In this document: one piece after another, positions 8,661 to 23,464 of the stretch
How the letters are laid out: every line of letters begins with the position of its first letter
Position numbering within the stretch: position 1 is the first letter of the stretch
From: a virus
Strand: one strand, 5' to 3'
Length of the DNA: 23,464 nt
Virus record (IMG/VR): IMGVR_UViG_3300031622_000025
Location: 1-23,464 of that record
The notes under the pieces: model-generated
The model's input: the letters and a program-made list of their open reading frames with translations, nothing else
The model's database searches: none
What the model was told of the DNA's origin: nothing
Position numbers and translations under genes: made by a program

Positions 8661-9199
8661 TGGCAAAGCAAATAATTAATACTGGAAAGTCTCAAAACAA
8701 AGGAGACGGTGATCCATTACGTACTGCGTTTACAAAAGTAAATGAAAACTTTAATGAACTGTACGGTGGTTCAATGACTGACACTGAAAACTTTGCAGCA
8801 AATATAATTCCAGGTGTTGACGATACTAATAGTTTAGGATCAGCAACAAAACGGTGGTCTGAACTATATGTTAAAGATTATATTTTTATTAATGGCGTGA
8901 GACTAAGTGGATCATCCGATGGAAACTTAGTAGTAGGTGCAGATGTTCTTCAAGTAAATAACATAGTAGGAAGTGTGTTTGCAGACGATTCAAAATTAAT
9001 GATGGACGGACTAACAGGTACGCTGTACGGTCCATTAATTGGAGACGTAACAGGTAGTGTGTTTGCAGACAACAGTACACTATTAGTAGACGGTGTTGCC
9101 GGTACTATACCTGGCTACGTAAGTATTGCATCATTAAAAACAGAAGTTGCAGCAAGTGCAGACTTTGCAGCATTTAAGATTAGGATTGCAGCACTATAA
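8660..9199 (+). CDS. gp10-motif structural protein, tail/baseplate associated
   Basis: This 179-residue protein begins with a motif like the first ~30 residues of T4 baseplate wedge gp10: I-N-T-G near residue 6, then GDGDPLRTAF and a K-x-N-x-NF-x-ELY ending near residue 35. In fibre and baseplate proteins of T4-like marine phages such modules probably attach the protein to the tail. A WSELYVKD segment follows, then two GSVFAD repeats (D-D-S-K-L and D-N-S-T-L variants) and a C-terminal IPGYVSIASLKTEVAASADF segment. It is translationally coupled to the giant fibre gene through a TAATG overlap. It is far shorter than T4 gp10 (about 600 residues), so it is not a full gp10 orthologue. Structural role is likely; partner unknown. 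Confidence 0.7.
   Translation: MAKQIINTGKSQNKGDGDPLRTAFTKVNENFNELYGGSMTDTENFAANIIPGVDDTNSLGSATKRWSELYVKDYIFINGVRLSGSSDGNLVVGADVLQVNNIVGSVFADDSKLMMDGLTGTLYGPLIGDVTGSVFADNSTLLVDGVAGTIPGYVSIASLKTEVAASADFAAFKIRIAAL
8971..9070 (+). repeat. Direct repeat encoding GSVFAD units
   Basis: The 15-base stretch AGTGTGTTTGCAGAC occurs at 8972-8986 and 9056-9070, 84 bases (28 codons) apart and in frame. The surrounding codons also align (S-V-F-A-D followed by D/N-S-x-L, then M/V-D-G), so a 28-residue unit is duplicated in tandem. Confidence 0.8.
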
Positions 9200-9206
9200 T
9201 GAGATA

Positions 9207-9215
9207 CGATAAATA
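9207..9215 (+). promoter_or_regulatory. T4-type late promoter (CGATAAATA)
   Basis: GATAAATA at 9208-9215 matches seven of eight bases of the T4 late consensus TATAAATA. It sits in the short gap between two structural genes, 20 bases before the ATG at 9236. The same core occurs before three other structural genes here. T4 late promoters have no -35 box and are read by host RNA polymerase with gp55/gp33 and the sliding clamp; use of that system here is inference. Confidence 0.6.
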
Positions 9216-9235
9216 TATGAAACAGGATGTAACTA

Positions 9236-11533
9236 ATGGCAAATAGATTTCCAATAATAATTGACACCAACGATAATAACCGTCTTAAGGAATTGCCAAA
9301 TGGTGATAGCTTAGATCTAGCTAACGGTGGTGTTAGAAATGCACAGTTTATAGAAACTGCTTCACTTATTATAGCAGGAGCTAATTTTGTTCCATTTAGT
9401 AGGGCGTATGCAGATCTAACTGGTACTCCAACTATTGCAACAGATATTTCAAGTTTAACAGATTCACAAAATTTATTAACTGGTACTAGTTTTTCTACTA
9501 TTACTAGCAAGCCTACTACATTATCTGGGTACGGAATTACAGATGCGTTTAATGGAACATATGCCGGGCTAACTGGAGCACCAAATCTAGCACCAATAGC
9601 AACTACAGGTTCATTTAATAGTCTTACAGCCAAACCCACTACACTTGCAGGTTATGGAATTACAGATGCACTCACAGGCGCATCACTTTTAAAGAATCTA
9701 GCAGATGTACACACAGTAGTACCAACAGACGGACAGCTATTAAGTTGGGACAACTCAAATAGTTATTGGAAACCAATTACAGCATCAGGTACAGGTACAG
9801 TTACAAGCGTAATAGCAAGCACTGGACTAACTGGTGGAACTATTACAAGTGCAGGAACTATAGCAGTTGATGTAGGAACTACAGCAAATAAAATTGTACA
9901 GCTAGATGCAAGTGGAAAACTTCCAGGAGTTGACGCATCATCGTTATATAATGTAAATATTAGTTCACTTAACAGTATTATAGATACTACTATTACTTCT
10001 CCAACTAACGGACAAGTTTTAAAGTATAACGGAACAAACTGGTTTAACGCTACAAACGATGGATCTGGAGGCTCTATTACTTTTGTAGGAGACGACTCAA
10101 CAGGTACAGCAGTAGACGGTAGTGAAACTTTTAAAATTGCAGGTGGTACTAATATTACTACAGCAGTTTCAGGAGATACATTAACTATTAATGCAACAGC
10201 AATTACAAAAGCACAAGTTAGTGATTTACTAAATAGTGATTTTGACGTAGGCACAAACAAGATACTATATTCTAACGTTTATGCAACTGAGGGTGATCTA
10301 CCTACTGCAAGTTCATACCATGGTATGTTTGCTCATGTACATGCTACAGGAGCAGGTTACTTTGCACATGGCGGTGCATGGATAAAGTTAGCAAATAATG
10401 CAACTACACTAGCAGGATATGGCATTACTGATGGATATGCAAACACCAACGTTGACGCCCATTTAAATCAAGCAGGTAGCGTAACAACTGGTTATGTACT
10501 AAGTTGGAACGGTAGTGATTATGCATGGGTAGCACAAAGTGGTGGTGGCGCCAGTATTGGTAACTTTACGTTTGCTTCTAGTGTTGTTGACACTGATGAT
10601 TCAAGTGGTATTACTATTACACCGTCAGTTACAATAAGCAGTGACTTAACTGTAGAGAATGACCTAGTTGTAAATAACAAAATAACAGCAACAGAGTTTG
10701 TTAGCTTGTCTGCAGGAACTCCTGAAATTAGATCAGCTACAACTTTAGACTTATACGCAATAGGCGCAGTAAGAATTCAAAACGGAGCGTTAAGATTATT
10801 TAATGCAACAACAACAGTTAGAGATACATTGTCACCAGCAAAAGGTGATGTTGTTTATAACTCAACTGTAAATAGAACACAAGTTTATACAGGTGCAGCA
10901 TGGGTTAGCAATGCACTTAGCACAGACATTCCAACTAGCACTAGTCAGTTAACTAACGGAGCAGGATTTGCTACACTAGCAAGTCCAACGTTTACAGGAA
11001 CAGTAAGTGGTATTAGTTCAACAATGGTTGGACTTAGTAATGTTACAAACGAATCGAAAAGTTCGATGTTTACTGATCCAACATTTACAGGAACAGTTGG
11101 CGGCGTAACAAAACAAATGGTTGGGTTGAGTAATGCAACAAACGAATCTAAAGCAACTATGTTTACTAGTCCAACATTTACAGGAACAATAGCAGGATCA
11201 TTTGGTGGTACTGTAGAAAACTCTTTTAATATTACAGCAAGCGGATCAAGTGACTACGTGTTTGCAGCAGACTCAAAATTCTTTACTGCAAATGCTAACG
11301 ATCCTGTATTATACTTGCGAAGAGGTGAAACATATAAATTTATTGTAAATGCAAGCGGACATCCATTCCAAATAAGAGTAAGTAACGGTGGTTCAGCATA
11401 TAATACTGGTGTAACTAATAATGGTCAATCTAATGCTACAATTACATTTATAGTACCAATGACTGCTCCAGCAACATTATATTACCAATGTACTGCTCAT
11501 AGTGGTATGGGTGCAGTTATTAACATCGTTTAG
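9236..11533 (+). CDS. Tail fibre protein with C-terminal cupredoxin-like domain
   Basis: This 765-residue protein is built of phage fibre repeats. Three copies of a TTL(A/S)GYGITD unit occur (about 9520, 9640 and 10405), and three exact-period 31-residue units follow at 10985-11190. The last ~90 residues look like a small beta-sandwich: SDYVFAADSKFF, then YLRRGETYKFIVNASGHPF, then YYQCTAHSGMG. H709, C752, H755 and M758 reproduce the order and C-x2-H-x2-M spacing of the type I copper ligands of amicyanin. The domain could be a metal-binding fibre tip or merely a stable adhesion fold. A late promoter at 9207-9215 precedes the gene, with AGGA about 10 bases before the ATG. Fibre identity is firm; copper binding is untested. 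Confidence 0.8.
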   Translation: MANRFPIIIDTNDNNRLKELPNGDSLDLANGGVRNAQFIETASLIIAGANFVPFSRAYADLTGTPTIATDISSLTDSQNLLTGTSFSTITSKPTTLSGYGITDAFNGTYAGLTGAPNLAPIATTGSFNSLTAKPTTLAGYGITDALTGASLLKNLADVHTVVPTDGQLLSWDNSNSYWKPITASGTGTVTSVIASTGLTGGTITSAGTIAVDVGTTANKIVQLDASGKLPGVDASSLYNVNISSLNSIIDTTITSPTNGQVLKYNGTNWFNATNDGSGGSITFVGDDSTGTAVDGSETFKIAGGTNITTAVSGDTLTINATAITKAQVSDLLNSDFDVGTNKILYSNVYATEGDLPTASSYHGMFAHVHATGAGYFAHGGAWIKLANNATTLAGYGITDGYANTNVDAHLNQAGSVTTGYVLSWNGSDYAWVAQSGGGASIGNFTFASSVVDTDDSSGITITPSVTISSDLTVENDLVVNNKITATEFVSLSAGTPEIRSATTLDLYAIGAVRIQNGALRLFNATTTVRDTLSPAKGDVVYNSTVNRTQVYTGAAWVSNALSTDIPTSTSQLTNGAGFATLASPTFTGTVSGISSTMVGLSNVTNESKSSMFTDPTFTGTVGGVTKQMVGLSNATNESKATMFTSPTFTGTIAGSFGGTVENSFNITASGSSDYVFAADSKFFTANANDPVLYLRRGETYKFIVNASGHPFQIRVSNGGSAYNTGVTNNGQSNATITFIVPMTAPATLYYQCTAHSGMGAVINIV
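10985..11190 (+). repeat. 31-codon tandem repeat in fibre gene
   Basis: CCAACRTTTACAGGAACA starts at 10985, 11078 and 11171, exactly 93 bases apart. Between the copies lie closely similar units encoding MVGLSNxTNES followed by K-x-x-MF and PTFTGT. The high DNA identity of the last two units points to recent duplication or homogenisation, a common source of variation in phage fibre genes. Confidence 0.85.
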
Positions 11534-11542
11534 GAGACTACA

Positions 11543-11815
11543 ATGGCCGCAAATGGGATATCAACACTAACACTAAAACGTACTAGACAGGACACCAAAC
11601 TTGCAAAAGCACTAGCCAAGCGAGAAGGTAAAACAGTGGCTGCAAACGGTACAATTAGTGGTAGCACAGATACAGATGCAGTAGCATACAGGGCGAGAAA
11701 CACTCTTACTGTTTCTCAATTACCTACTAGGTATCATGCTTCAAGTAACACAGGTGCATTAATAGATAATGCAAACAGCGGAGGGCTTGTTGTTGGCAGG
11801 CCATGGACTGCGTAA
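11543..11815 (+). CDS. Small protein of unknown function in the tail module
   Basis: This 90-residue protein has a basic N-terminal half (K12, R13, R15, K19, K22, K26, R27 and K30 within its first 30 residues) and a C-terminal segment with Pro, Asn and Gly ending VGRPWTA. No catalytic motif, signal peptide or membrane segment is visible. AGGAG at 11532-11536 overlaps the stop of the fibre gene and lies 6 bases before this ATG, so the two genes are probably co-transcribed. The stop is immediately followed by the ATG of the subtilase gene. It may be a small virion protein or an accessory to the fibre or protease; nothing in the sequence decides between these. Confidence 0.7.
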   Translation: MAANGISTLTLKRTRQDTKLAKALAKREGKTVAANGTISGSTDTDAVAYRARNTLTVSQLPTRYHASSNTGALIDNANSGGLVVGRPWTA

Positions 11816-14572
11816 ATGGCTGAAAAAGAATATATTGTAAGTCTTAACCGCGGTGTCGATTACGATGCATTTAATGCTGAAATGATCGCATCAACTGGTG
11901 CTGGTGACATTCCCAATAGAACAATAACCGTAGAAAATGCTAGGCCGTTAAGTCAGCGTAATACTCATTACATGTTAGAGGACGCAGAAGCGGTAGCACT
12001 ACTTGACGATGCTAGAGTATGTGGAGTTGAAATTCCTCCAGAACAACGTACTGATATTGAAATTGGACTTAGTGCTCAACAATTTGGTAGCTGGCGTAAA
12101 ACTTCAGCTGATGCGTCAACTGATCTAAACTGGGGAATGATGCGAGGAATACATCGCGAAGATGTATGGAATCAAACAACTGAAACTACACTTCCGTTTA
12201 ATTACAATCTAACAGGCAAAGGTGTTGATGTTGTAATACAAGATAGTGGACTTGATGTAGGACATATTGAATTTACTGATGCTAACGGTGTAAGTAGAGT
12301 AAACCAAATTGATTGGTTTGCAGCTAGTGGCGTGTCAGGTACACAGAGTGCAAATCATTATAGAGATTACGACGGTCACGGTACACATGTTGCTGGCACA
12401 GCAGTTGGCCGCACAATGGGTTGGGCCAAAGACGCACAAATTTATTCAGTAAAAGTTTATGGCTTAGAAGGTACAGGTGATGACGAGACAGGAATAAGTG
12501 TATCAGATTGCTTTGATGTTATTAAAGGTTGGCATAATAACAAACCTATCGATCCTGCTACAGGATTTAAAAGACCAACAGTAGTAAACATGAGTTGGGG
12601 ATATGGTTTTAGTAATAGTGCTACTCCTACAGTAGGAGTATATAGGGGCGCCGCCTGGACATACGGTGATTCCGGGTACAACAATGATTATGCAATGTGG
12701 CAAACAGCTGGTATCGTTGTCAAACTTGGTACAAAGAGATACATTAATTCGAGAATAACTAGTGTTGATACTGATGTACAAGAAATGATAGATGCAGGAA
12801 TACATATATGTGTTGCTTGTGGAAATAACTATTATTATGTAGATAACGCAAACGGACAAGACTATAACAATACTGTCACTATAAATGGTAGTGTTCGTTA
12901 CTATCATCGAGGATCAAGCCCATATGATGAAGAAGCACTTATAGTAGGAAGTATTGACATAGACTATCAAAGTAATTTAGAAAACAAATCAGAATTTAGT
13001 AACACTGGTCCAGGCGTAAACATTTATGCACCAGGATCACAAATTATGAGTGCTAGTTCAAATGATAATCCAAGTGGAACAAGTGATAAGGCTGCGACTA
13101 ACAATAGACAAACCCATCCACTTGATAGCAGTCAACACATATATAAAATTAGTGGAACTAGTATGGCATCACCAAATGTTTGTGGGCTACTAGCAACTGT
13201 ACTAGAGCAGAATAAAGGGCTGACTCCTGCACAAGCACAAGCCTGGATATTTAAAAACTCAACACCTAGCAAGCTATATAACGGTACTGTTGATGATTGG
13301 GATGACCAAGACAGTATTCAGCAAATTGGAGATTCAATAAATTATTCATCTGGTTCAGTTAAAACAGTTACTGAGCTTCCGCCGTTTACTAAAGAACTAA
13401 CTGTACGAGGAATAAAACTTTTAGGGCATGGACCATATGATGTGTCTGCTAAAGGTATTAGTGATACCTTTTTAGAAAAGGTTGCACGGACTGTACAATT
13501 ATTACTTGATCCCGAAGCATCAGGTATAGATAAAGAAAAACAAGCTGCGGCTATAGACGGCATGGCTAATGAAAACAACGAAGGCAACTTTGGCATAGGG
13601 CCAACCGTTCAACGAATTGGTTACATTAATGGCGGACAGTATGCCCGATCTTTCTTAGACGATGATGCACCTAATAATTATCCGGGATTACAAAATACTG
13701 AATTTTCGTATAGAGCAAAAGACTATGTATGGGAATTTCCAGACGATGACGCAAGTGGTTCAGGTATTGCTGACTGGGGCGGATATACCGTTGGTGGACA
13801 GGTTACTGAAGTACTAGAACATGTATTACATACTATTAGTCAACATGGATTACATTACGCATATCCATACGAACTAAACATTACAAGTGGCCAAATTGGC
13901 AGTCCAATGATGACAGCAATGCAAGAAGCTATTACAAATAGTGTATTTGATGTTTCAGGATATAGTGCATTATATAGTCCAGATTCAACTGTAGATCTTG
14001 ATGAGATGTCAAATGAAATGTTACAAACTTCTAGAGGTATATCTTCTAAATATTCTGAATATTTAAATGAAACTGTAAGTGGTCGTAAGAGGGGTGATGT
14101 TAATGATAGTGGCAGTATTGATATTGACGATGTTATGGGATTTCTATCATTTAAGAATGGAGCCAGCAACGCTTGGATTACAGATAATATTATTACACCA
14201 TTAACCTATAACGGATATTATGCTGCAATTGCAAGAGAATATCAATACTTGTTATGTTATGCAATGTGGGAATACTATTCAGTATACGTTGACGGTGGAA
14301 GTTTATCTCCTGAATGGAATGATAATTCAAGAACACAAGCAGGTGTATTAACAAATAATCCATTAGGGTATGCATTGTTTAATAATTTTATTAGTAAAGT
14401 TATATCAAAACCGACCGAGGCTACACTAAATGCTATGTTTGCAGTTAGCGGAGCGTCAGGTTATATCCCAGTAGAAAATACAAATAGAATTTTCTACACT
14501 CCGTTTGCTTCAAAAGATACTTTAACTGTTGGAAACTTTACAGGTATCGGAGTTAGTATAGCAAACAAATAA
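11816..14572 (+). CDS. Subtilisin-like serine protease (S8) with Ca-loop C-terminal half
   Basis: The first ~510 of 918 residues form a subtilase. D143 lies in VVIQDSG, H188 in DGHGTHVAGT and S449 in SGTSMASP, giving the complete triad; N337 in VACGNN is the expected oxyanion-hole Asn. Residues 1-100 may act as a propeptide-like region (YIVSLNRGVDYDAF at the start resembles inhibitor I9 beginnings). The region from ~520 is not a protease domain I recognise: it has a His cluster (H669, H672, H677, H680) and one EF-hand/dockerin-like loop at 761-772 (D761, N763, S765, S767, D769, D772). There is no obvious signal peptide. The gene starts directly after the stop of the 90-residue gene, within the tail-fibre cluster. 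The likely role is a virion-associated protease acting on the cell surface or on tail proteins; the target is inferred, while the protease call is firm. Confidence 0.92.
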   Translation: MAEKEYIVSLNRGVDYDAFNAEMIASTGAGDIPNRTITVENARPLSQRNTHYMLEDAEAVALLDDARVCGVEIPPEQRTDIEIGLSAQQFGSWRKTSADASTDLNWGMMRGIHREDVWNQTTETTLPFNYNLTGKGVDVVIQDSGLDVGHIEFTDANGVSRVNQIDWFAASGVSGTQSANHYRDYDGHGTHVAGTAVGRTMGWAKDAQIYSVKVYGLEGTGDDETGISVSDCFDVIKGWHNNKPIDPATGFKRPTVVNMSWGYGFSNSATPTVGVYRGAAWTYGDSGYNNDYAMWQTAGIVVKLGTKRYINSRITSVDTDVQEMIDAGIHICVACGNNYYYVDNANGQDYNNTVTINGSVRYYHRGSSPYDEEALIVGSIDIDYQSNLENKSEFSNTGPGVNIYAPGSQIMSASSNDNPSGTSDKAATNNRQTHPLDSSQHIYKISGTSMASPNVCGLLATVLEQNKGLTPAQAQAWIFKNSTPSKLYNGTVDDWDDQDSIQQIGDSINYSSGSVKTVTELPPFTKELTVRGIKLLGHGPYDVSAKGISDTFLEKVARTVQLLLDPEASGIDKEKQAAAIDGMANENNEGNFGIGPTVQRIGYINGGQYARSFLDDDAPNNYPGLQNTEFSYRAKDYVWEFPDDDASGSGIADWGGYTVGGQVTEVLEHVLHTISQHGLHYAYPYELNITSGQIGSPMMTAMQEAITNSVFDVSGYSALYSPDSTVDLDEMSNEMLQTSRGISSKYSEYLNETVSGRKRGDVNDSGSIDIDDVMGFLSFKNGASNAWITDNIITPLTYNGYYAAIAREYQYLLCYAMWEYYSVYVDGGSLSPEWNDNSRTQAGVLTNNPLGYALFNNFISKVISKPTEATLNAMFAVSGASGYIPVENTNRIFYTPFASKDTLTVGNFTGIGVSIANK

Positions 14573-14575
14573 ATA
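14568..14575 (+). promoter_or_regulatory. T4-type late promoter (AATAAATA)
   Basis: AATAAATA matches seven of eight bases of the T4 late consensus. It overlaps the TAA stop of the subtilase gene (14570-14572) and lies 22 bases before the ATG at 14598. A good ribosome-binding site, AAGGA at 14585-14589, follows. The position matches the octamers before 9236, 15339 and 18594. Confidence 0.55.
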
Positions 14576-14597
14576 CATACGTATAAGGAAAAATAGA

Positions 14598-15305
14598 ATG
14601 ACAACGCAAAAAATTAATATAGGACAACTAGCAAACGACGGCACTGGTGATGACATTAGAACTGCGTTTGATAAAATTAACGATAACTTTGTTGATCTAG
14701 ATACAAGGTTTCCAACTGCTGCAACAGGCGTAAATTTAGGATCACTTGGTGAAAACGTGTTTGAAAGTAATACAAATTCAGAATTAAGTTTTAAGAAACT
14801 AATAGCAGGTTCTCATATTACACTATCTTCGTCAGCTACTGGAATTACAATTTCAGGAACTACTGATTTAGACCAATTAATAGCTGTTAGTGATAGTGGT
14901 ACAGTTACAGTTAGTAGAGGACAGACAATGTCTGTTCAAGGTCTTAACGGAATTACTACATCTGTTATAGGACAGAATTTATATGTATCCGGTACAACAG
15001 GAGTAGTAGGGTCAGATACGTTACCTACATTAAGTGCAAACTTAAACGCCAACAATAAAAATATTATAAACGGTGGTACTATAACTGCTTCGGGATTTTA
15101 TGGTCCTATAGAGGGATTAGTATACGGTGTGGACGTTAGAGAGATAGGAAACGCAGGGCCTAATGCTTGGGATTTTGGATCAATAAGTGAAACATATACT
15201 AGCTTATTAGATTACATAGGAAAATCAACTAACGTAGATCTTGGTACATACGTAGGTGCAGGTGTTGCAAGTGGTGAAATAGACCTAGGTAGCATTGCAG
15301 TATAG
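14598..15305 (+). CDS. gp10-motif structural protein
   Basis: This 235-residue protein opens with the T4 gp10-type N-terminal motif: KINIGQLANDGTGDDIRTAF followed by DKINDNFVDL, covering residues 5-34. The rest is rich in Ser, Thr, Gly and Asn with beta-type periodicity (SHITLSSSATGITISGTT; TVTVSRGQTMSVQGLNGI), which suits a fibre or baseplate-spike protein. Near residues 140-170 there is an L-N-A-N-N-K-N-I-I-N-G segment like those of phage fibre proteins. It shares its N-terminal motif with the protein at 8660-9199 and more loosely with that at 18594-19154. A late promoter and AAGGA ribosome-binding site precede it. Probably part of the baseplate-fibre interface; full gp10 function is not supported because the protein is too short. 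Confidence 0.7.
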   Translation: MTTQKINIGQLANDGTGDDIRTAFDKINDNFVDLDTRFPTAATGVNLGSLGENVFESNTNSELSFKKLIAGSHITLSSSATGITISGTTDLDQLIAVSDSGTVTVSRGQTMSVQGLNGITTSVIGQNLYVSGTTGVVGSDTLPTLSANLNANNKNIINGGTITASGFYGPIEGLVYGVDVREIGNAGPNAWDFGSISETYTSLLDYIGKSTNVDLGTYVGAGVASGEIDLGSIAV

Positions 15306-15310
15306 GTTAC

Positions 15311-15318
15311 GATAAATA
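15311..15318 (+). promoter_or_regulatory. T4-type late promoter (GATAAATA)
   Basis: GATAAATA, preceded by C, is identical over nine bases (CGATAAATA) to the element at 9207-9215. It lies in the 33-base gap between two structural genes, 20 bases before the ATG at 15339, the same distance as at 9208-9215. The identical flanking base and spacing support function. Confidence 0.62.
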
Positions 15319-15338
15319 CTTAAAAGTTAGGAACTAGC

Positions 15339-18300
15339 ATGGCAGTATTTTGGACACAATTTTCAGGACAAACTCTAGGAACATTAGTTGAAGGTGTATC
15401 TACAACAGTAGATTTGCCATTAGATTTATCTGTGGTTGCTGATGATTCAACACTGTATACAGTAACACACATTAGTGGCGAATTGCCACTTGGTATGGTA
15501 CTCCAAGATAACTCTATAACTGGTACTCCAAGAGAAGTTTCTAGAGATACAGAATACAAATTTGTATTACGGGCAACATACAACAGTACAATAAACGATA
15601 GAACTTTTATTATAAAAGTAACAGGTCCAGATACTCCTACATGGAACACTGCCGCAGGATTATTACCAGTAGGTCAAAATAATGCATTTTATATATTAGA
15701 TAATAGTCCAATCGACTTTCAATTAATTGCCGAAGATTCAGATACAATAGCAGGGCAAAAATTAGAATACTTTATAGGTTCAGAAGATGGAGTACTTCCA
15801 CCGGGAATAACATTAACAACTGACGGAAAATTAATAGGAATAGTAGATCCAATACTTGCAATTGAAAAACGAATTGACTCTGGAAATTACGATATAAGTA
15901 ACTTTGATAATATTGCATATGATTACGGTGTAAGAAGTTCAAATGGTTTTGACAGTTTCTTTTATGATACTACAATTTATGACCTAAGTATTCCAACTCG
16001 ATCGCCTAGAAAACTTAGCAGAAATTACGAATTTGTTGTTTCAGTTAATGACGGCGATACTATTTCTAGAAGAACATTTAAAATTTATGTAGTTGGAGAT
16101 GATTTTGTAAGAGTAGATAATACTCTTATGGAAGTAGATACTGGCGTGTTTACTGCTGACAATACACATATTAGAATACCATTATGGTTAACTCCTAGAG
16201 ATTTTGGATATCGAAGGGCGAATAACTATGTTACGTTATTCTTAGATACATTAGATACTAACGAGCTATTAGGTATTATGTCATACTCGTTACAAGAAGT
16301 AAATGACGACGGTACAACTAGTACTCTTCCAGAAGGATTGTCGCTAGATACTATAACAGGAGAAATTGCTGGTCGCGTACCATACCAACCTAGTGTAACA
16401 AAAGAATATAAATTTACAGTTAAAGCAAGTAGAGTAGGACCAACAACTACTAAACAATATGTTACGTTAGCAATATACGAAGATATAGCATTTGGGGCAA
16501 GTGTATTAAAAGTAACAAAGAATCAAGATGTATCATTATTAATAGGAAGCCAGATAGTAATAGACGAAAAGTCTTATACTATAACAAAAGCAGATACTAC
16601 TATATCAACTGCGTACGACGAACTCTCGTTAGGAGAAAACTTAACAGTATCTACATTTGAAAATGCACTTCCTGGACAACAAGTAATAAAGATTAAAAAG
16701 TTAGGCCTACCATATATAACTAATATAATTGGAAAAACATTAATCTTCGGAGATTATTCTTATACTATTTCTAGTGTAGATATAAATCAAAAAGTTTATA
16801 GGTGTAGAATACCTCACGTGTCAACTACTTTTAATTCTGATAATTCTAAAATTTATTGGGAAGAAGTCGTAGGAGCATCGACTACAGGTGTAACTGATTG
16901 GCATCATGAAGCTAATTATGCACTAGATGATTTAATAAAATATAACAGTACAATGTTTGAAAATATAACAGTTAGTACTAATATAGTTACAACTATCTAC
17001 GCCGGAGCAGTTACTCCAATTGAATTAATTCCGTTGTATACTACTAGAATAGTTAAAAAAGGTGAATTGTTTGATTTTAACTTATATTCTTCTCAAGCAA
17101 ACGAAACAGCAGAAGCAAATAAAACATTTACTGTTAAAACTTTAGGTGATGTGGATTCTAGAATTACTTGGATTACTCCGCAAAACTTTACAGATATTAG
17201 TGCTAATTATATTTCTAATTTACAAGTTGTAGCAACTAGCTCTGTTGTGTCAGCAAGAGTTATGTATTCATTAACAAAGGGCAAACTTCCACCGGGACTA
17301 ACACTTCTATTAGACGGATCGATATCTGGTAAAGTTAAAACGTTTAACGATACTAATGGAATTGGATTAACACAGTTTGATAAAGGAGTATTTATTTTAG
17401 ATGGGAACAAATCAACTGTTGATAGAAAATTTATATTTGAAATAACTGTACAAGATCAATTCGGATATAGTAAAACAACTAGAGAATTTAATATAACTGT
17501 AGGCGATCCTGATAATAAAACTTATAGTGATATATTTGCAAGACCATTGTTTAAGCAAACGCAACGTTCATTGTTTAATACGTTTATTAGTAATACAGAA
17601 ATTTTTAATCCAAGTTATATCTATCGTCCAGATGATCCAAATTTTGGTATACAAAGAAAAATTAATATGCTTATATACTCTGGAATTGAAACTAAAACTA
17701 TAGATCACTATGTTGCCGCGATAGCAAAGAATCACAAAAGAAAAAACTTTAAACTAGGAAATATAAAGACAGCAGTAGCAAAGACTCCAGGAACGCAAGA
17801 CATTGTATATGAAGTTGTATACCTTGAGGTTATTGATCCTTATTTACCAACAGCAGGCGAAGTAAGAAAAAGTATTCAAATTGATACTAAAACAAAACTA
17901 TTAACAAGTGAGTCACAGTATGGCGATAAGCCTGCACCATTTATTTCGTTCAATTTTGAAGAGAGAAATCTAGGAGATAGTACTGCTAACACTCTACAAA
18001 TTATACCAGTTGGTGGAAGTATATCTGTATTACAAAGAACCGGAACTGAAGTTGTATCTGGACAAAATAACGAAATATTAATAGGATTAAGAGATTTATC
18101 TACAGTAACGTTTCCTGCAACTATAAGTGCATATGTTGCAGATAAAACTGCTACTAGTCCTTGGTATTTAGAGTCAGTAAATACAAACGTAATTAAAGTT
18201 GATAGTAATGCAATAAGCAGTGATCAAAGGAACGATTCAAAACGTTATATTTCAAATCTTAAAAACATGCGAGACAATATTGCAGATTCCGGTATTACTG

Positions 18301-18551
18301 TAAGAAACTTCTTACCGTTGTGGATGAGAACTGCTCAAGAGGGCCAGTTACAAGAATTAGGCTATGTTTCTGCAGTTCCACTATGTTATACATTAAAGGG
18401 TAAAAGTAAAATTATTAAAAATGCTGTAGATTATCAAGCATTTGACTTTACTCAATTAAATTTTGACATAGATAGATATATTATAGATAATACTACAGGA
18501 AACACAGCTGAACAATATTTGCTATTCGCAAATTACCAGTTTAACATTTAA
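15339..18551 (+). CDS. Large virion structural protein with Ig-like (He_PIG-type) motifs
   Basis: This 1070-residue protein has at least four signatures of putative Ig or cadherin-like domains, LPxG(L/I/M)xL followed by a glycine-containing turn: near residues 48 (LPLGMVLQDNSITG), 153 (LPPGITLTTDGKLIG), 329 (LPEGLSLDTITGEIAG) and 649 (LPPGLTLLLDGSISG). Each is followed by a YEF/YKF(x)V beta strand. The C-terminal part (LPLWMRTAQEG near 990; NFDIDRYIIDNTTGN near 1045; LLFANYQFN at the end) is of a type I recall from T4-like cyanophage structural proteins. Ig-like domains on virions often give weak adhesion to surface glycans. A late promoter and an AGGA ribosome-binding site precede the gene. 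The exact virion location is unknown; a tail or baseplate accessory is likely. Confidence 0.78.
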   Translation: MAVFWTQFSGQTLGTLVEGVSTTVDLPLDLSVVADDSTLYTVTHISGELPLGMVLQDNSITGTPREVSRDTEYKFVLRATYNSTINDRTFIIKVTGPDTPTWNTAAGLLPVGQNNAFYILDNSPIDFQLIAEDSDTIAGQKLEYFIGSEDGVLPPGITLTTDGKLIGIVDPILAIEKRIDSGNYDISNFDNIAYDYGVRSSNGFDSFFYDTTIYDLSIPTRSPRKLSRNYEFVVSVNDGDTISRRTFKIYVVGDDFVRVDNTLMEVDTGVFTADNTHIRIPLWLTPRDFGYRRANNYVTLFLDTLDTNELLGIMSYSLQEVNDDGTTSTLPEGLSLDTITGEIAGRVPYQPSVTKEYKFTVKASRVGPTTTKQYVTLAIYEDIAFGASVLKVTKNQDVSLLIGSQIVIDEKSYTITKADTTISTAYDELSLGENLTVSTFENALPGQQVIKIKKLGLPYITNIIGKTLIFGDYSYTISSVDINQKVYRCRIPHVSTTFNSDNSKIYWEEVVGASTTGVTDWHHEANYALDDLIKYNSTMFENITVSTNIVTTIYAGAVTPIELIPLYTTRIVKKGELFDFNLYSSQANETAEANKTFTVKTLGDVDSRITWITPQNFTDISANYISNLQVVATSSVVSARVMYSLTKGKLPPGLTLLLDGSISGKVKTFNDTNGIGLTQFDKGVFILDGNKSTVDRKFIFEITVQDQFGYSKTTREFNITVGDPDNKTYSDIFARPLFKQTQRSLFNTFISNTEIFNPSYIYRPDDPNFGIQRKINMLIYSGIETKTIDHYVAAIAKNHKRKNFKLGNIKTAVAKTPGTQDIVYEVVYLEVIDPYLPTAGEVRKSIQIDTKTKLLTSESQYGDKPAPFISFNFEERNLGDSTANTLQIIPVGGSISVLQRTGTEVVSGQNNEILIGLRDLSTVTFPATISAYVADKTATSPWYLESVNTNVIKVDSNAISSDQRNDSKRYISNLKNMRDNIADSGITVRNFLPLWMRTAQEGQLQELGYVSAVPLCYTLKGKSKIIKNAVDYQAFDFTQLNFDIDRYIIDNTTGNTAEQYLLFANYQFNI
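18463..18491 (+). promoter_or_regulatory. Possible sigma-70 promoter inside a structural gene
   Basis: TTGACA (18463-18468), 17 bases, then GATAAT (18486-18491) matches 11 of 12 consensus bases with ideal spacing. It lies in coding sequence about 100 bases before the gene at 18594. Because the DNA is AT-rich, a chance match is quite possible; only a mapped transcript start near 18498 would establish it. Confidence 0.3.
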
Positions 18552-18555
18552 AAGC

Positions 18556-18574
18556 AATAAATACTATATAAATA
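18556..18574 (+). promoter_or_regulatory. Tandem T4-type late promoters (AATAAATA and TATAAATA)
   Basis: Two octamers lie in the 42-base gap after the Ig-like protein gene: AATAAATA at 18556-18563 and the exact T4 late consensus TATAAATA at 18567-18574. The second is 19 bases before the ATG at 18594, in line with the spacing of the other late octamers here. AGGAG at 18580-18584 is the ribosome-binding site. Confidence 0.65.
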
Positions 18575-18593
18575 AAGATAGGAGAGATCATAA

Positions 18594-19154
18594 ATGGCTA
18601 GTAACATACTTACAACTGATATAAACGAATTATATCCAGTTGCTGGATCTGATAATGATAGTCAGGGATTTAGAGATAACTTCCGTCTAGTTAAAACAGG
18701 ATTAGCAACAGCAGCAACAGAAATAACTTCGTTGCAAACTACATCTGCAAAGTTAAATGCAGAAAATGACTTTAACGGAAATGTAATAAGAGAAGCAAAC
18801 TTTATTGCTAATTCAGAAGAAGCATATGTAACTGACGAAGTAACAGCAAGTCAAGACTTAAGATTTGTAAACGGTAACTATCAAGTTATCACAGTAGGTG
18901 CTGATGTTACATTAACACTAACTGATTGGCCAGCTACTGGCAAATTAGGAAAAATACGCTGTGCTGTTAAAGGCGACGGAGTTTCTAGATTAATTACATT
19001 CTCTGCAGGCCCTAATAGAGTATTAAAAACAGATACAAATTGGCCAGTTAGTTTTCTAGCTGTTAGTGAAACTGATCCAATCTTTATAGATCTTTGGTCA
19101 AGTGACGCTGGCTTAACAGTATACGGTCAGTATCATGGACAATTCACTGTTTAA
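18594..19154 (+). CDS. gp10-related small structural protein
   Basis: This 186-residue protein has an N-terminal segment (INELYPVAGSDNDSQGFRDN then FRLVKTGL, residues 10-37) that is a variant of the gp10-type GDxLRxAFxKINxNF motif. The following ITSLQTTSAKLN stretch is probably a short coiled coil. The C-terminal ~100 residues form a beta domain (YQVITVGADVTLTLTDWP, then GKIRCAVKGDG, then ITFSAG, ending FIDLWSS...GQYHG). This resembles, in strand pattern, the second part of the T4 gp10 N-terminal region; the similarity is by eye only. A consensus late promoter precedes it. Its last 20 bases overlap the next gene. Probably a baseplate or fibre-attachment protein. Confidence 0.68.
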   Translation: MASNILTTDINELYPVAGSDNDSQGFRDNFRLVKTGLATAATEITSLQTTSAKLNAENDFNGNVIREANFIANSEEAYVTDEVTASQDLRFVNGNYQVITVGADVTLTLTDWPATGKLGKIRCAVKGDGVSRLITFSAGPNRVLKTDTNWPVSFLAVSETDPIFIDLWSSDAGLTVYGQYHGQFTV

Positions 19155-19377
19155 TCCATTAATAGATTCTTTATCGGATCTTTCAGTAAACGAACTAACT
19201 AATAAAATTGACGAACTTTCTCGTAAGTATTTTATGTCTAGTAATCCTGACATACAACTTCAGATACAGTTAATACTAGAAATGTATAACTCTGAGCTTA
19301 CAGTAAGACAATCTAAAGACATGAAAAATATCGAAAATGGCGATAAAAGTCTTGACAATCTGATTAATATCAGTTAA
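19135..19377 (+). CDS. Conserved-type small helical protein, function unknown
   Basis: This 80-residue protein is mostly predicted helix: LFNPLIDSLSDLSVNELTNK, then ELSRKYF, then a DIQLQIQLILEMYNSE helix and a charged tail ending DNLINIS. I recall similar small proteins in T4-like cyanophages, but no function. The ATG lies 20 bases inside the preceding gene in another frame and has no clear ribosome-binding site, so expression may depend on translational coupling to that gene. No catalytic residues or membrane segments are visible. Confidence 0.65.
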   Translation: MDNSLFNPLIDSLSDLSVNELTNKIDELSRKYFMSSNPDIQLQIQLILEMYNSELTVRQSKDMKNIENGDKSLDNLINIS

Positions 19378-19386
19378 ACTATATAT

Positions 19387-19908
19387 ATGCTTATGAAAAC
19401 AGATACCCTAGGAATACCACGATTCTCTAATCGCGACTTAATTGACATGATCTATAGTGGCCATGTGGATAAATGTCATGTGGTACTTTGTGACGAAAGT
19501 GATGATATTAATAAATTTAATACAGTAATGTCAGAACAAGGACTTCCTACACTTACAAAATATATTCCAATTGACGTAGACGAAAAGACATTTGATAGTG
19601 CGTTACAATCAGAATGGTTTATGCCTAAGGAGTACAAAGAACTAAATGTACATAATTATGTATTAACAAAGTGTAAAACACAAGAAGAAACTGCAAGGTG
19701 TGCAACAGAACTTGCAGAATATGATGGTAGAGGTATGATACCGTTATTACAGTATATGATTTACCTTGTAGACTTTATGCGTGAAAATAATATTATTTGG
19801 GGTGTAGGTAGAGGTAGTAGTGTAGCAAGTTATGTGCTATACTTAATAGGCGTACATAGAATTAATTCAATCCAGTTTGACCTGGACTGGAGAGAGTTCC
19901 TGAGATAA
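19387..19908 (+). CDS. PolIII-alpha (DnaE/PolC)-like fragment protein without catalytic site
   Basis: This 173-residue protein ends in a clear match to the start of the C-family DNA polymerase palm: a helix (LLQYMIYLVDFMRENNI), then G-V-GRGS (GRGS at 141-144), then ASYVLYLIGV, then FDLDWREFLR. In E. coli DnaE the equivalent segment is [20 protein letters not shown] followed by FDLLFERFLNP, and the catalytic P-D-F-D-V-D motif comes next. Here translation stops at the equivalent of ERFL, so the metal-binding aspartates are absent and it cannot be a polymerase alone. T4-like phages normally use a family-B polymerase (gp43). It may be an independent regulator or nucleic-acid-binding derivative; its role is unknown. 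The N-terminal ~110 residues are unrecognised. A second ATG six bases downstream (19393) is an alternative start; no clear ribosome-binding site is seen for either. Confidence 0.75.
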   Translation: MLMKTDTLGIPRFSNRDLIDMIYSGHVDKCHVVLCDESDDINKFNTVMSEQGLPTLTKYIPIDVDEKTFDSALQSEWFMPKEYKELNVHNYVLTKCKTQEETARCATELAEYDGRGMIPLLQYMIYLVDFMRENNIIWGVGRGSSVASYVLYLIGVHRINSIQFDLDWREFLR

Positions 19909-19936
19909 GTAAGTATATAACTAAGGAGGTATTACA

Positions 19937-20320
19937 ATGCCAATGAAAGCACAAGGACGCACAGTTTACAAATCAATGCAAGGTAAGCAGATTGATATGG
20001 ACATGTTACGTCAAAGAAATGAACTTACTCAAGCAGTAGGTAATGCAAAAGTCAACGCCCGGGGCGATGAAATAGGCCCAGGTGGTAAAATTACTCGAAA
20101 GAAAGAAGACGTTCTAAGAGAATACTATGAAAATTCTTCTAGTATGCCTGATGAGGTAGCCGTTAAAAAGCCAACTTCTGAAGAAATAGAAGAACAAATA
20201 ATAGTTGCAGCTAAAACAACTGCAAAAACTACGAAAGCTACAACAGAGCCTGTTAAAAAAGATTTAACAGACGACTGGGAAGAAGACGAATCTGGAAATT
20301 TTGTAAAAAAAGGTGACTAA
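19937..20320 (+). CDS. Charged protein of unknown function
   Basis: This 127-residue protein is very hydrophilic. The first half is basic with a GRTVYKSMQGKQIDMDMLRQ segment and a Gly/Asn-rich turn (NARGDEIGPGGKI, near residues 40-53); the last 60 residues are Lys/Glu/Thr-rich and end in an acidic patch (DDWEEDESG). I recall similar short proteins in T4-like marine phages without a known function. The ribosome-binding site AAGGAGG (19923-19929), 7 bases before ATG, is the strongest in the window and implies high expression. The stop overlaps the next start (TAATG). The composition would fit a nucleic-acid-binding or small virion protein; this is a guess. Confidence 0.72.
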   Translation: MPMKAQGRTVYKSMQGKQIDMDMLRQRNELTQAVGNAKVNARGDEIGPGGKITRKKEDVLREYYENSSSMPDEVAVKKPTSEEIEEQIIVAAKTTAKTTKATTEPVKKDLTDDWEEDESGNFVKKGD

Positions 20321-20733
20321 TGACTAGTGTAATAAAAGGCCAATTACGGCCTATTAAAGACAAGGTACTTGTAAGTCACATGTACTTTGGAGAACAAAAA
20401 ACTAAATCAGGTCTTATTATTAAAGACGACAACGGTACAACTCGAGGAATTTATCCTCGTTGGGGTAAAGTGTATGCTAAAGGTCCTACTAATAAAGAAG
20501 ATTACAATGTTGGAGATTGGGTTTTAATTATGCACGGACGCTGGACTCGAGGAATTAATCTTGAAGATGGAGATTCTGAGAAAGAAGTCCGTATGATAGA
20601 AAACGAAAGTGTATTAGCATTTTCAGATGAAAAACCAAGTGATGTTTATATTGGAGCAGAATACGCAGATGGCGAACATGCTACTGTAGATCCAAGTTCA
20701 TTTGTAAATTCGTCGGGAGCATTAGCACAATGA
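20320..20733 (+). CDS. GroES/gp31-like co-chaperonin
   Basis: Residues 9-105 have the GroES order: LRPIKDKVLV (the R-P-x-x-D-x-V strand), a mobile-loop region GEQKTKSGLII with the terminal hydrophobic tripeptide (LII, 32-34) that binds GroEL, then RG...WGKVYAKGP, then YNVGDWVLI and a final strand near ESVLAF. The SGLII end of the loop resembles that of T4 gp31, which replaces GroES when the host GroEL folds the major capsid protein. At 137 residues it is longer than GroES (about 97) and T4 gp31 (111), with an extra ~30-residue polar tail. AAAGGTG lies just before the start; the end overlaps the mazG-like gene by four bases (ATGA). Replacement of host GroES is inferred from the family. Confidence 0.8.
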   Translation: MTSVIKGQLRPIKDKVLVSHMYFGEQKTKSGLIIKDDNGTTRGIYPRWGKVYAKGPTNKEDYNVGDWVLIMHGRWTRGINLEDGDSEKEVRMIENESVLAFSDEKPSDVYIGAEYADGEHATVDPSSFVNSSGALAQ

Positions 20734-21143
20734 GCAAGCAAATAGACCTTAACAAGTATAAAGAATTTGTAGATGCTGTTACCAGCGACGAAAGCAAGAA
20801 TAACGATAATTTTACTAACCGTTGGGTAACACTAGTTAATCAACGTGATGTTGATATGCCAAGATTAGTAACTGCTTCTATGGGATTGGGTGCTGAATCA
20901 GGCGAGTTTACTGAAGTAGTCAAAAAGATTATGTTCCAAGGCAAGCCTTTAGATGCTGATAATATCTTTCATATGCAACGTGAACTAGGCGATATCATGT
21001 GGTATTGGATGCAGGGTTGTATGGCTTTAAATATTGATCCAAACGAAGTTATTCAAATGAATATTGATAAACTTAAAGCACGTTACCCAGGTGGCGACTT
21101 TGATGCACACTACAGTGAAAACAGACAAGACGGTGATGTTTAA
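20730..21143 (+). CDS. MazG-like nucleotide pyrophosphohydrolase
   Basis: This 137-residue all-alpha protein carries the MazG/dUTPase-2 metal-binding signature: E56-S-G-E59 followed, 25 residues later, by E85-L-G-D88, in GLGAESGEFTEVVKK and MQRELGDIMWYW. A downstream ALNIDPNEVIQMNIDKLKAR helix is also typical. MazG-type enzymes hydrolyse (d)NTPs to the monophosphate and pyrophosphate. Phage versions have been proposed to clean non-canonical nucleotides or alter ppGpp signalling; substrate here is not deducible. GGGAG (20715-20719) and the ATGA overlap suggest coupling to the co-chaperonin gene. It is the last gene before the promoter/hairpin at 21151-21214. Confidence 0.85.
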   Translation: MSKQIDLNKYKEFVDAVTSDESKNNDNFTNRWVTLVNQRDVDMPRLVTASMGLGAESGEFTEVVKKIMFQGKPLDADNIFHMQRELGDIMWYWMQGCMALNIDPNEVIQMNIDKLKARYPGGDFDAHYSENRQDGDV

Positions 21144-21150
21144 TTAAAAA

Positions 21151-21214
21151 GAACTTGACTTCTTCAACTTTATACGTTATAATATACATATAAAGTTTGA
21201 AGGAGTCTAGTTTT
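21151..21214 (+). repeat. Long inverted repeat spanning promoter and ribosome-binding site
   Basis: The left arm 21157-21174 (GACTTCTTCAACTTTATA) is complementary to the right arm 21189-21207 except for one T-G wobble and one unpaired T at 21196. Pairing extends outward past one T-T mismatch (21156/21208) through 21152-21155 with 21209-21212. That gives about 22 pairs around a 14-base loop (21175-21188) which contains the -10 box. The right arm includes the AAGGAG ribosome-binding site (21200-21205) of the exonuclease gene. RNA crossing the whole element would hide that site, while RNA started at the internal promoter lacks the left arm. It may also act as a weak terminator (TTTT at 21211-21214). 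Confidence 0.8.
21155..21183 (+). promoter_or_regulatory. Sigma-70-type promoter (TTGACT-N17-TATAAT)
   Basis: The -35 box TTGACT (21155-21160) matches five of six consensus bases; the -10 box TATAAT (21178-21183) is perfect, and the spacer is the optimal 17 bases. It lies in the 69-base gap after the MazG-like gene, in front of the exonuclease-clamp loader-ferredoxin operon. A start near 21190 would give a leader of about 23 bases with AAGGAG seven bases before the TTG codon. It is probably an early promoter used by unmodified host RNA polymerase, in contrast to the late octamers of the structural genes. Confidence 0.82.
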
Positions 21215-21749
21215 GACAATACACGCTACAATCGATTTAGAAACACTTGATACATCTCCAAGTGCGACTGTACTAAGTTTAGGTGCAGTTAAGTTCAATC
21301 CGCTTAATACAAGTGAACCCCATTCAGAATTATACATTAAAATAGATATTGACGAGCAAGACAGCTTAGGCCGTACAGCATCTGATAGCACTATTGAATG
21401 GTGGGGTAAACAAGATCCTAAAGTAATGGAAGAAGCATTTGATCCTAATAATAGAGTTAGTGTAAGTGACACTCTAAAACAGATTAATAAATGGATGGTC
21501 GGTGTTGATATACTTTGGGGACAAGGTTACGGTTTTGATATGACTATATTAGAACACATGTATAGGGTCGCTGGCGTTCCTATACCTTGGAACTTTTGGA
21601 TTGTACGTGACAGTCGTACACTATTTGGGTTATGTGAAAAGGACCCAAGGAAGTTAATGCAAACTGATCTTCACAATGCATTAGCAGACGCATACTTTCA
21701 GGCTAAATCAATACAAGTAGCATATAAAGAACTAGGAGTTAAAAAATGA
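21213..21749 (+). CDS. dexA: DexA-like DEDDh 3'-5' exonuclease
   Basis: This 178-residue protein has the DnaQ/exonuclease fold motifs: ExoI I-D8-L-E10-T; ExoII WGQGYGFDM with D109; ExoIII H154-N-A-L-A-D159, making it DEDDh. The STIEWWGKQ segment (59-67) is shared with T4 DexA (STIEWWKNQ), as are the W-Q-G-x-x-FD core and the R-D-x-R-T near 132. T4 DexA (227 residues) degrades single-stranded DNA; this copy is shorter, chiefly at the C-terminus. The start is TTG at 21213: AAGGAG (21200-21205) lies seven bases before it, and the next ATG (21423) would remove the ExoI motif. It is the first gene after the sigma-70 promoter and its ribosome-binding site lies in the inverted repeat. The stop overlaps the next gene by four bases. 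Confidence 0.85.
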   Translation: MTIHATIDLETLDTSPSATVLSLGAVKFNPLNTSEPHSELYIKIDIDEQDSLGRTASDSTIEWWGKQDPKVMEEAFDPNNRVSVSDTLKQINKWMVGVDILWGQGYGFDMTILEHMYRVAGVPIPWNFWIVRDSRTLFGLCEKDPRKLMQTDLHNALADAYFQAKSIQVAYKELGVKK

Positions 21750-21964
21750 ATACTATAATACTAGTAACTATAGTAGCAGGTAATATTGTGAGCTCAGCAA
21801 CATTTGGAACACTAAATGAATGCACACAAGCTAGAGATGTAGTTATGTCACAAGACAATATATCTGCGTACTGCACATACAAGCAAGTTGAACCCGATCA
21901 TACTAAAGATGTGTTTAAATTATTTGGTCGAATGATCCAAGAAATAGGAGAACTAGAAAAATAA
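21746..21964 (+). CDS. Small two-cysteine protein, function unknown
   Basis: This 72-residue protein starts with a hydrophobic stretch (IILVTIVAGNIV, residues 4-15) that may be a beta strand rather than a signal peptide, because no charged n-region precedes it. A helix and a second strand follow, with C26 and C43 placed to form a disulphide or thiol pair (LNECTQARD and SAYCTYK); the tail is helical and charged. AGGAG at 21734-21738 and an ATGA overlap indicate coupling to the exonuclease gene; the stop overlaps the clamp-loader start. Small proteins of this pattern occur in phages and bacteria without assigned function, as far as I recall. Confidence 0.65.
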   Translation: MNTIILVTIVAGNIVSSATFGTLNECTQARDVVMSQDNISAYCTYKQVEPDHTKDVFKLFGRMIQEIGELEK

Positions 21965-22878
21965 TGAAAGAATTATGGGTAGAAAAATATCGTCCTAAAA
22001 CAGTTGCAGGATATGTATTTAAAGATAATGCACAACGCAGTCAAGTAAACACTTGGATTAAAGATAAGACTATTCCGCATTTGCTGTTTAGTGGTAATGC
22101 AGGTATTGGTAAGACTACCCTTGCTAAACTATTGTTTAACGAGCTTGACATAAATGATTTAGATGTATTAGAAATTAATGCAAGTCGTACAAATAGTGTT
22201 GACGATGTACGTGATAAGATTGTAAATTTTGTACAGATGATTCCGTTTGGGGATTTCAAAGTTGTATTACTTGACGAGGCAGATTATTTAAGTCCAAATG
22301 CACAAGCTGCACTACGTGGAGTGATGGAAGAATATCACACTACATCAAGATTTATTTTAACATGTAACTATCCTAACAGAATTATTCCTGCACTACACAG
22401 TCGTTGTCAAGGCTTTCATATTGCTAAGATTGATCAAACAGAGTTTACTGCAAGAGTTGCAGAGATTTTGATTGCAGAAGGCGTAGTTCCAAACTTAGAT
22501 ATCTTAGACACATACGTAAAAGCAACTTATCCAGATTTGCGTAAATGCATTAATATGGTACAGATGAACGTACAGGATAAAAGTTTGCTTAAACCAAATG
22601 AAGGTGATTCTGGTGCAAGTGACTGGAAACTTGATATGGTAGAATTATTTAAAGCAGGCAAGATTCAAGAAGCACGTAAGTTACTATGTGGATCTGTACG
22701 ACCAGAAGAAATGGAAGAAATTTATCGCTGGCTATATGATAACATTGAACTGTTTGGAGATGACACACAACAAGATACAGCAGTCTTAACTATTAAACAA
22801 GGGTTAGTAGATCATACGTTAGTTGCAGATCCAGAAATCAATCTAGCAGCAACGTTAATTAGACTTGCGAGAATATAA
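21964..22878 (+). CDS. 44: Sliding-clamp loader large subunit (gp44-like AAA+ ATPase)
   Basis: This 304-residue protein is an RFC-family AAA+ ATPase close in length to T4 gp44 (319). Motifs in order: an N-terminal [11 protein letters not shown] (RFC box II-like), Walker A GNAGIGKT (44-51), Walker B VVLLDEAD (D104, E105), sensor 1 LTCN (N135), the SRC arginine-finger motif (S146, R147, C148), and sensor 2-like [12 protein letters not shown] helical collar domain follows. With gp62 it should load the gp45 clamp for replication, and in T4 the clamp also activates late transcription. AGGAG lies about 13 bases before the ATG, and both ends overlap neighbours by one base (TAATG). No gp62-like gene follows in this window; a ferredoxin gene is there instead. 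Confidence 0.92.
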
Positions 22879-23234
22879 TGACATACTTAGTAAACGACGA
22901 TTGTATTAAATGTAAACACATGGATTGCGTAGAAGTTTGTCCTGTAGATTGTTTTTACGAAGGTGAAAATATGTTAGTAATTAATCCAGATGAATGTATT
23001 GACTGTGGTGTATGTGAACCTGAGTGTCCAACAAATGCTATATTAGCAGACAACGCTTTTAGTACTCCAGAAGAATCATTAAAATGGTTAGACGTTAATA
23101 CAAAATATTCAGCACTATGGCCAAACATTACAGTGTTTCGTCCTGAAGATGTCCCCTCAGATGCTAAAGAATGGGATGGAGTACCTAATAAATATGAAAA
23201 TCACTTTAGTGAAAAACCAGGTAAAGGTGATTAA
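22878..23234 (+). CDS. fdxA: 7Fe ferredoxin, FdxA/FdI type
   Basis: This 118-residue protein aligns along its length with Azotobacter vinelandii ferredoxin I (106 residues). All nine cysteines of that protein's two motifs are present at the same spacing: C9, C12, C17, C21, C25, C40, C43, C46 and C50. By that template C9, C17 and C50 hold the [3Fe-4S] cluster; C21, C40, C43 and C46 hold the [4Fe-4S] cluster; C12 and C25 are free. [14 protein letters not shown] and NPDECIDC are nearly identical to FdI, and WPNIT (81-85) and W-D-GV (99-102) match its C-terminal part. It is a cytoplasmic one-electron carrier. The start overlaps the clamp-loader stop (TAATG), so it is in the replication operon. 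It looks like a host-derived auxiliary gene; its redox partner is not shown. Confidence 0.93.
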
Positions 23235-23410
23235 TGGGTGGTCGAAAACAAACACGTAAAGATTTTTCAGGAAACTTAATTAAAATAAGTATGCTTGAGC
23301 AAGAGATTGCTTATGCACAATCACAATTAAAAGAACATGATACAGGACATATACATACTGCTATCAGTTGGATGAAACACAGAGTAAAGGATTTAAAGAA
23401 TGAAAGTTAA
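23234..23410 (+). CDS. 58-residue protein of unknown function
   Basis: The ATG overlaps the ferredoxin stop (TAATG) and AAAGGTG at 23223-23229 lies just before it. The 58-residue product starts [11 protein letters not shown], then has two helices (LEQEIAYAQSQLKEH and ISWMKHRVKDLKNES) likely to form a helical hairpin. It is basic and without cysteines. The stop overlaps the next gene start by 11 bases. The good ribosome-binding site and the tight coupling on both sides support a real gene; no function is recognised. Confidence 0.65.
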   Translation: MGGRKQTRKDFSGNLIKISMLEQEIAYAQSQLKEHDTGHIHTAISWMKHRVKDLKNES

Positions 23411-23464
23411 ATTAGTATCTTATAGTAAAGCAGCATCTGAGTTCCATTCTCAGGGCTTAGATAA
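23400..23464 (+). CDS. thyX: Start of a probable ThyX thymidylate synthase (3' partial)
   Basis: Only 21 codons are in the window, beginning MKVKLVSYSKAASEF. The K-V-K-L-(V/I)-S-Y beginning is what I recall for flavin-dependent thymidylate synthases (ThyX) of T4-like marine phages, which make dTMP from dUMP using FAD and NADPH. AAAGGA at 23386-23391, eight bases before the ATG, supports the start, which overlaps the 58-residue gene by 11 bases. The diagnostic RHR motif of ThyX lies outside the window, so the assignment is tentative. Confidence 0.4.
   Translation, partial: MKVKLVSYSKAASEFHSQGLD

Follow-up and report, generated by a model that had tools for sequence, protein, structure and literature searches.

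The gene for a DexA-like 3'-5' exonuclease in an uncultured marine T4-like phage is preceded by a hairpin of about 60 bases (21150-21214, + strand) that contains both a sigma70-type promoter and the Shine-Dalgarno (SD) sequence of the gene. With a probability of roughly 0.7, this element works as an expression gate, in which RNA started at the internal sigma70 promoter is translated and late readthrough RNA is silenced by a fold that masks the SD sequence. The window, that is, the whole stretch of 23,464 nucleotides analysed here, covers part of the genome of this phage, and the element occurs in a marine group of T4-like phages that are uncultured. The tail-fibre and baseplate proteins of the window match PHROGs and cyanophages. 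The same strand carries, upstream of the element, genes for tail proteins, a fragment resembling a DNA polymerase, a GroES-like gene and mazG (20730-21143, + strand, from the list of open reading frames; PF03819), which is the last gene of the upstream cluster and whose stop codon lies 6 nt 5' of the hairpin. Downstream are dexA itself (21213-21749, + strand, TTG start; PF16473, E 2e-36; PHROG 255 exonuclease, E 1e-48), a 72-aa ORF, a clamp loader and a ferredoxin-like gene.

A similar junction, consisting of the mazG-side cluster, the element, dexA and a clamp-loader-like gene, is found in four large contigs, in one of which the proteins were checked against profiles. The ferredoxin-like gene of the window (Fer4, DUF3470; 22878-23234) is located directly 3' of the clamp-loader gene, in a phage. 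A 173-aa ORF (19387-19908) matches only a DNA polymerase III alpha fragment (PF07733) and PHROG 11127, and a homologue occupies the same place in L232. Among the matches listed in a DNA similarity search of the region against sequenced phages, only its mazG part is covered. No cultured phage carrying the element was found, and the nearest cultured DexA relatives are less than 60% identical.

The element would form a compact gate where a late cluster, running from the tail genes to mazG, meets an early cluster of replication genes that includes dexA and the clamp loader. Transcription by the sigma70-bearing host RNA polymerase would begin within the right arm of the hairpin, at about 21190. RNA from this start would lack the left arm, leaving the SD sequence free and allowing dexA to be translated early. 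Readthrough RNA from mazG, which most likely starts at the late TATAAATA promoters near 18560, would carry both arms and fold, so that ribosomes could not bind at dexA. In most relatives a T-run directly after the stem would probably terminate most upstream RNA as well, and the window copy, from which the T-run has been lost, would rely on SD masking alone.

The minimum free energy (MFE) fold of 21120-21230, a calculation proposed with the original prediction, has a free energy of -31.4 kcal/mol, compared with -14.0 +/- 2.5 kcal/mol for shuffled sequences (z -6.9; 0 of 200 as stable as the hairpin). Of the 4680 segments of 65 nt on the + strand of the window, the hairpin is the most stable. 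In this fold, the core arms (21157-21177 and 21186-21207) form 20 pairs with a single bulge at 21196, and an outer extension pairs 21150-21155 with 21209-21214. The left (5') arm, identified by the MFE fold and by covariation in relatives, spans 21150-21177 and includes the anti-SD stretch ACTTCTTC; the right (3') arm spans 21186-21214. The layout described beforehand is present: the -10 box TATAAT (21178-21183) lies within an 8-nt loop (21178-21185), AAGGAG, the SD sequence of dexA (21200-21205), lies in the right arm, and the -35 box TTGACT (21155-21160), placed in the left arm by the original prediction, straddles the base of that arm. The two boxes are separated by 17 bp, and this spacing predicts a transcript start at 21190 (+ strand), 7 nt 3' of the -10 box and inside the right arm. 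The SD sequence is followed by a degraded spacer, TCTAGTT (21206-21212), where relatives have the T-run TTTTCTT. A repeat search did not list the inverted repeat, presumably since ungapped extension is interrupted by the bulge, and Rfam covariance models gave no match in the window at the gathering score.

Every base of the SD sequence is paired in the long RNA. The computed probability that it is unpaired in long upstream RNA is 0.001 in the window and has a median of 0.0004 over 41 elements, in support of the claim that the hairpin hides the SD sequence in RNA coming from mazG. In RNA from the predicted internal start at about 21190, which lacks the left arm, this probability is 0.51 in the window and has a median of 0.44 over the 41 elements, as against 0.47 at 12 ordinary sites, so the release of the SD sequence that had been proposed is predicted as well. 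The short RNA of the window is no more structured than its shuffles (z -0.25). This suggests a placement of the internal promoter that keeps its own RNA from forming the block. For some relatives, L030 and L063 among them, much of the SD sequence is predicted to be hidden in the short RNA as well.

A DexA protein search gave 80 loci with 56 distinct leaders; where a gene of 52-61 aa precedes dexA, the leader of that gene was taken. Of these leaders, 35 combine a strong sigma70 promoter with a hairpin that masks the SD sequence, 5 have the promoter only, 4 the hairpin only and 12 neither; about one-third of dexA leaders are without the element. Two of the four hairpin-only leaders look by eye like tRNA genes abutting dexA, and in L021, L029 and L035, which are loci without the element, a sequence that looks tRNA-like by eye abuts the dexA start. 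A scan with a pattern requiring TTGACT..AAGGAGT, by which part of the set was found, added 51 stretches, some of them from the same contigs. The total is 41 distinct elements, all of which stand directly before dexA or before the 52-61 aa gene preceding it. This hydrophobic ORF, which has the motif GTTGATGIALMILHITGYLTGWAWP and no PHROG match, separates the element from dexA in many relatives, where it carries the element (for example L005, L014, L032, L073 and L232:5609-5767). L002, the nearest relative of the window (dexA 96% identical), has weak arms, and L082 and L083, the two closest mazG relatives, have no element directly after mazG.

The original prediction tied the element to dexA. 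The element does stand before dexA, but similar leaders also occur at other genes. A pattern search of twelve large contigs gave no more than one strict copy in any genome and suggested an element confined to dexA; this idea was rejected, as structure-led scans found similar leaders elsewhere. A 142-aa gene (PHROG 27048) has such a leader in L261-L264, L266, L269 and L271, with the -35 box outside the hairpin, the -10 box in the left arm (CTCCTGCTATAAT...AGCAGGAG) and a T-run following. A promoter-in-hairpin leader precedes mazG in L092, L093 and L098 and also in L082 and L152; none was seen before mazG of the window. Similar leaders are found before the primase gene of L196 and before genes of L198 and L253 that match PHROG 639 (transcriptional regulators) and are read as gp33-like from this match. 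In four large contigs, a strong promoter lies just upstream of 10 of 41 masked ribosome-binding sites (RBSs) compared with 28 of 435 unmasked ones (odds ratio 4.7, p = 6e-4), some of the counted cases being the dexA element itself. Because the positions of the -35 box and the arms vary with the same outcome, namely a start between the arms, these leaders suggest that the gate has been selected repeatedly rather than inherited by descent from one copy. Sigma70 promoters are also located in near-perfect palindromes on the - strands of L226 (~3770) and L227 (~17284), where the SD sequence is not covered.

Most copies of the element in relatives probably terminate upstream RNA as well, as judged from their T-rich spacers and terminator scores. 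In relatives, T accounts for 82% of the 4-6 bases that separate GGAGT from the start codon, compared with 29% T (46% A) at ordinary sites, represented by 396 GGAG RBSs of the same contigs; the spacer is at least three-quarters T in 93% of the elements and in 1.8% of ordinary sites. The T-run is not an extension of the stem, because the TTG beside the left arm pairs with it by one wobble at most. The d'Aubenton-Carafa terminator score exceeds 0 in 18 of the 41 elements and -10 in 29 of them, compared with 1 and 5, respectively, of 1003 ordinary tails placed on the same stem. The earlier suggestion that the hairpin could end upstream RNA is therefore supported by the relatives but not by the copy in the window. 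An intrinsic terminator has a stem followed by a T-run within 0-2 nt, and the window has TCTAGTT there and a score of -49; L002, likewise without a T-run, scores -76. The T-run of the window copy appears to be lost, termination of upstream RNA is not predicted there, and in both the window and L002 the SD mask would act alone.

The same data bear on a different reading, in which the element is primarily an intrinsic terminator with a nested promoter, the SD sequence lies in the right arm for compactness and masking adds little. The T-rich spacer 3' of the stem in nearly all 41 elements and the terminator scores agree with it. So does L229:17157-17193 (+ strand), in which a 2OG-Fe oxygenase gene is preceded by a terminator-like hairpin that encloses a strong sigma70 promoter and leaves the SD sequence outside, and so does the distribution of strong -10 boxes, which peak in the middle of terminator-like hairpins (6 versus 1-4 per neighbouring 20-nt bin). 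However, the window and L002 retain the hairpin over the SD sequence without a T-run, 23 of the 41 elements score below zero by the d'Aubenton-Carafa formula, and the leaders of L152 and L253 mask the SD sequence without a clear T-run. We therefore regard a terminator-first element as rather unlikely.

The promoter of the gate scores 11 out of 12 and is among the four best-scoring matches in 8000-23464. Sigma70-like matches as a class are not commoner in the window than in shuffles, and the match by itself is therefore weak evidence; together with the hairpin and its conservation, the evidence for a promoter is strong. It is improbable that the promoter is absent and that the AT-rich loop of an attenuator, or of an mRNA-stability structure in a mazG-dexA transcript, merely mimics one. 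Such a mimic would fit the chance frequency of promoter-like matches in the window and the degenerate -10 boxes of some relatives (TATTGT in L056 and TAACAT in L066). However, all 35 of the protein-found leaders with hairpin and promoter keep TTGACT or TTGACA, the 17-bp spacing and a -10-like box, the conserved stem leaves out the first three bases of TTGACT, and the promoter recurs within the hairpins of other genes with shifted geometry.

The arms differ widely in sequence among relatives, and their complementarity is retained. Over the 41 elements, the outer 14 pairs are 92% paired, compared with 36-55% when the arms are slid against each other; for 32 distinct arm pairs, the figures are 95% and 35-55%. 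On these 32 arm pairs, double-sided changes occupy 78 cells compared with 26.7 +/- 4.0 in shuffles, and the covariation score is 0.504 compared with 0.136 +/- 0.019. The pairs that touch the SD sequence and the -35 box hardly vary, as expected because both are fixed by other functions. A comparison of this kind had been named as a check on the hairpin, and the refuting outcome named with it, arms not conserved or without compensatory changes, clearly does not hold: the hairpin, with heavy covariation between its arms, persists in 41 distinct relatives. This is strong evidence from aligned sequences, which are related and not independent lineages, that the RNA fold of the element is under selection. 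An operator, in which the palindrome across the promoter is bound by a repressor protein, would explain that a near-palindrome spans the -35 and -10 boxes and that ACTCCTT/AAGGAGT is constant in most copies. However, these constant parts are accounted for by the -35 box, the -10 box and the SD sequence, and the position of the hairpin relative to the -35 box differs between genes. The remaining arm positions show 5-6 different pair types each with pairing kept, which is explained by an RNA fold and not by a sequence-specific operator, and this possibility is very improbable. The coincidence of a promoter with a DNA palindrome also recalls the N4-like promoters, at which a phage RNA polymerase recognizes a hairpin extruded from the DNA, but the likelihood of this is negligible because the N4 promoter hairpin has a stem of 5-7 pairs and a 3-nt loop, the stem here has about 20 pairs, the promoter is near the full sigma70 consensus and the right arm always ends in an SD sequence, which a DNA promoter does not require.

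The internal promoter is of the sigma70 type (TTGACT-17-TATAAT), not a T4 late promoter, and is probably early. RNA reaching the hairpin from upstream is probably late, because late-type motifs head the upstream cluster. Two of them, AATAAATA (18556-18563, + strand, from a motif scan) and TATAAATA (18567-18574, + strand), precede the gene at 18594, which is the head of the cluster ending in mazG; TATAAATA occurs in the window at 8060 and 18567 only. Judged by motif placement, the clade uses T4-type late promoters: GATAAATA is found 12-45 nt before ORFs 47 times versus 2.2 expected in this clade, and TATAAATA 15 times versus 1.1, compared with 3 versus 1.5 for the control TTTATATA. Total counts of TATAAATA are not above those of a reversed control, and hence only placement before ORFs was used. 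In G001, G002 and G005, CGATAAATA heads the upstream cluster at the equivalent place, and there is no strong sigma70 promoter between CGATAAATA and the element in G001 and G002.

In T4 genes e, soc and 49, the SD sequence is held in a helix in long upstream RNA, and RNA from an internal promoter, which lacks the 5' arm, is translated (PMC3014915). The dexA element is predicted to share this arrangement. For T4 gene e and I-TevI, late transcription starts at the internal promoter, and it is the early RNA that is blocked (PMC3014915, PMC2988022). In T4 e, late promoters (TATAAATA) lie inside and early RNA comes from upstream, whereas in the dexA element the promoter inside is of the sigma70 type and the one outside looks late. 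The parallel with T4 e drawn in the original prediction thus holds for the logic of SD masking, but the timing is likely to be reversed, with expression on early and late readthrough off. Furthermore, a T-run follows the stem in most relatives of the dexA element, and the part of PMC3014915 used here mentions none for T4 e. The dexA element would thus resemble the T4 e and I-TevI leaders in its working yet lies outside their class, because the late promoter, a defining feature of the class, is absent.

The leaders of I-TevI, I-TevII, I-TevIII, segB and Aeh1 mobE combine an RBS hairpin with a promoter whose RNA cannot form it (PMC2988022). The dexA element shares with these homing-endonuclease leaders the RBS hairpin and, by prediction, a promoter placed so that its RNA would escape folding. 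However, their promoters are late or middle and their genes are mobile, whereas the dexA element occupies a conserved junction of nuclease and replication genes. A structure scan of the first 50 kb of T4 recovered the I-TevII leader as a positive control. T4 (L260) also has a weak case in the mrh.2 leader (~15242, - strand), with a sigma70-type early promoter in an SD-masking hairpin of -13.3 kcal/mol. No sigma70 promoter within an SD hairpin was found in the first 50 kb of HTVC008M and Syn9.

In IS10 and IS50, readthrough RNA folds and hides the RBS of the transposase. In IS200, a stem-loop in the leader sequesters the RBS (PMC12594629). The IS10, IS50 and IS200 leaders likewise guard against impinging transcription via folded readthrough RNA; they precede a transposase, whereas the dexA element precedes a PF16473 exonuclease, has no insertion-sequence gene and stays in place. 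Most relatives share with intrinsic terminators a stem with a G-C-containing base that is followed directly by a T-run. Unlike intrinsic terminators, the dexA-element stem holds a full promoter and the SD sequence of the next gene and has a long A-T-rich upper part. In the literature search, with most subscription papers outside it, no sigma70 promoters in SD-masking or terminator hairpins were found described for this phage group, and no promoter-terminator overlap is described for LUZ100 (PMC10134795). Compared with T4-type leaders, what is new is probably the sigma70 inner promoter with its probable reversed timing and, in most relatives, the T-run.

It is an even question whether such gates recur throughout the clade, each combining a terminator, a sigma70 promoter and a ribosome site in one hairpin of about 50 bp, in varied geometries before several early genes. 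An early gene downstream of late genes on the same strand would then be shut off from late readthrough in both transcription and translation. If the gate works as proposed, promoters nested in hairpins would serve both directions of time, T4 holding late genes back early and this clade holding early genes back late. The element would be a compact natural insulator, with a terminator, a promoter and an RBS in about 60 bp, of which 41 sequence variants are at hand. It would give a clear prediction of when dexA, which encodes a nuclease, is kept off. Furthermore, transcript levels in these phages would not mirror protein output for the gated genes.
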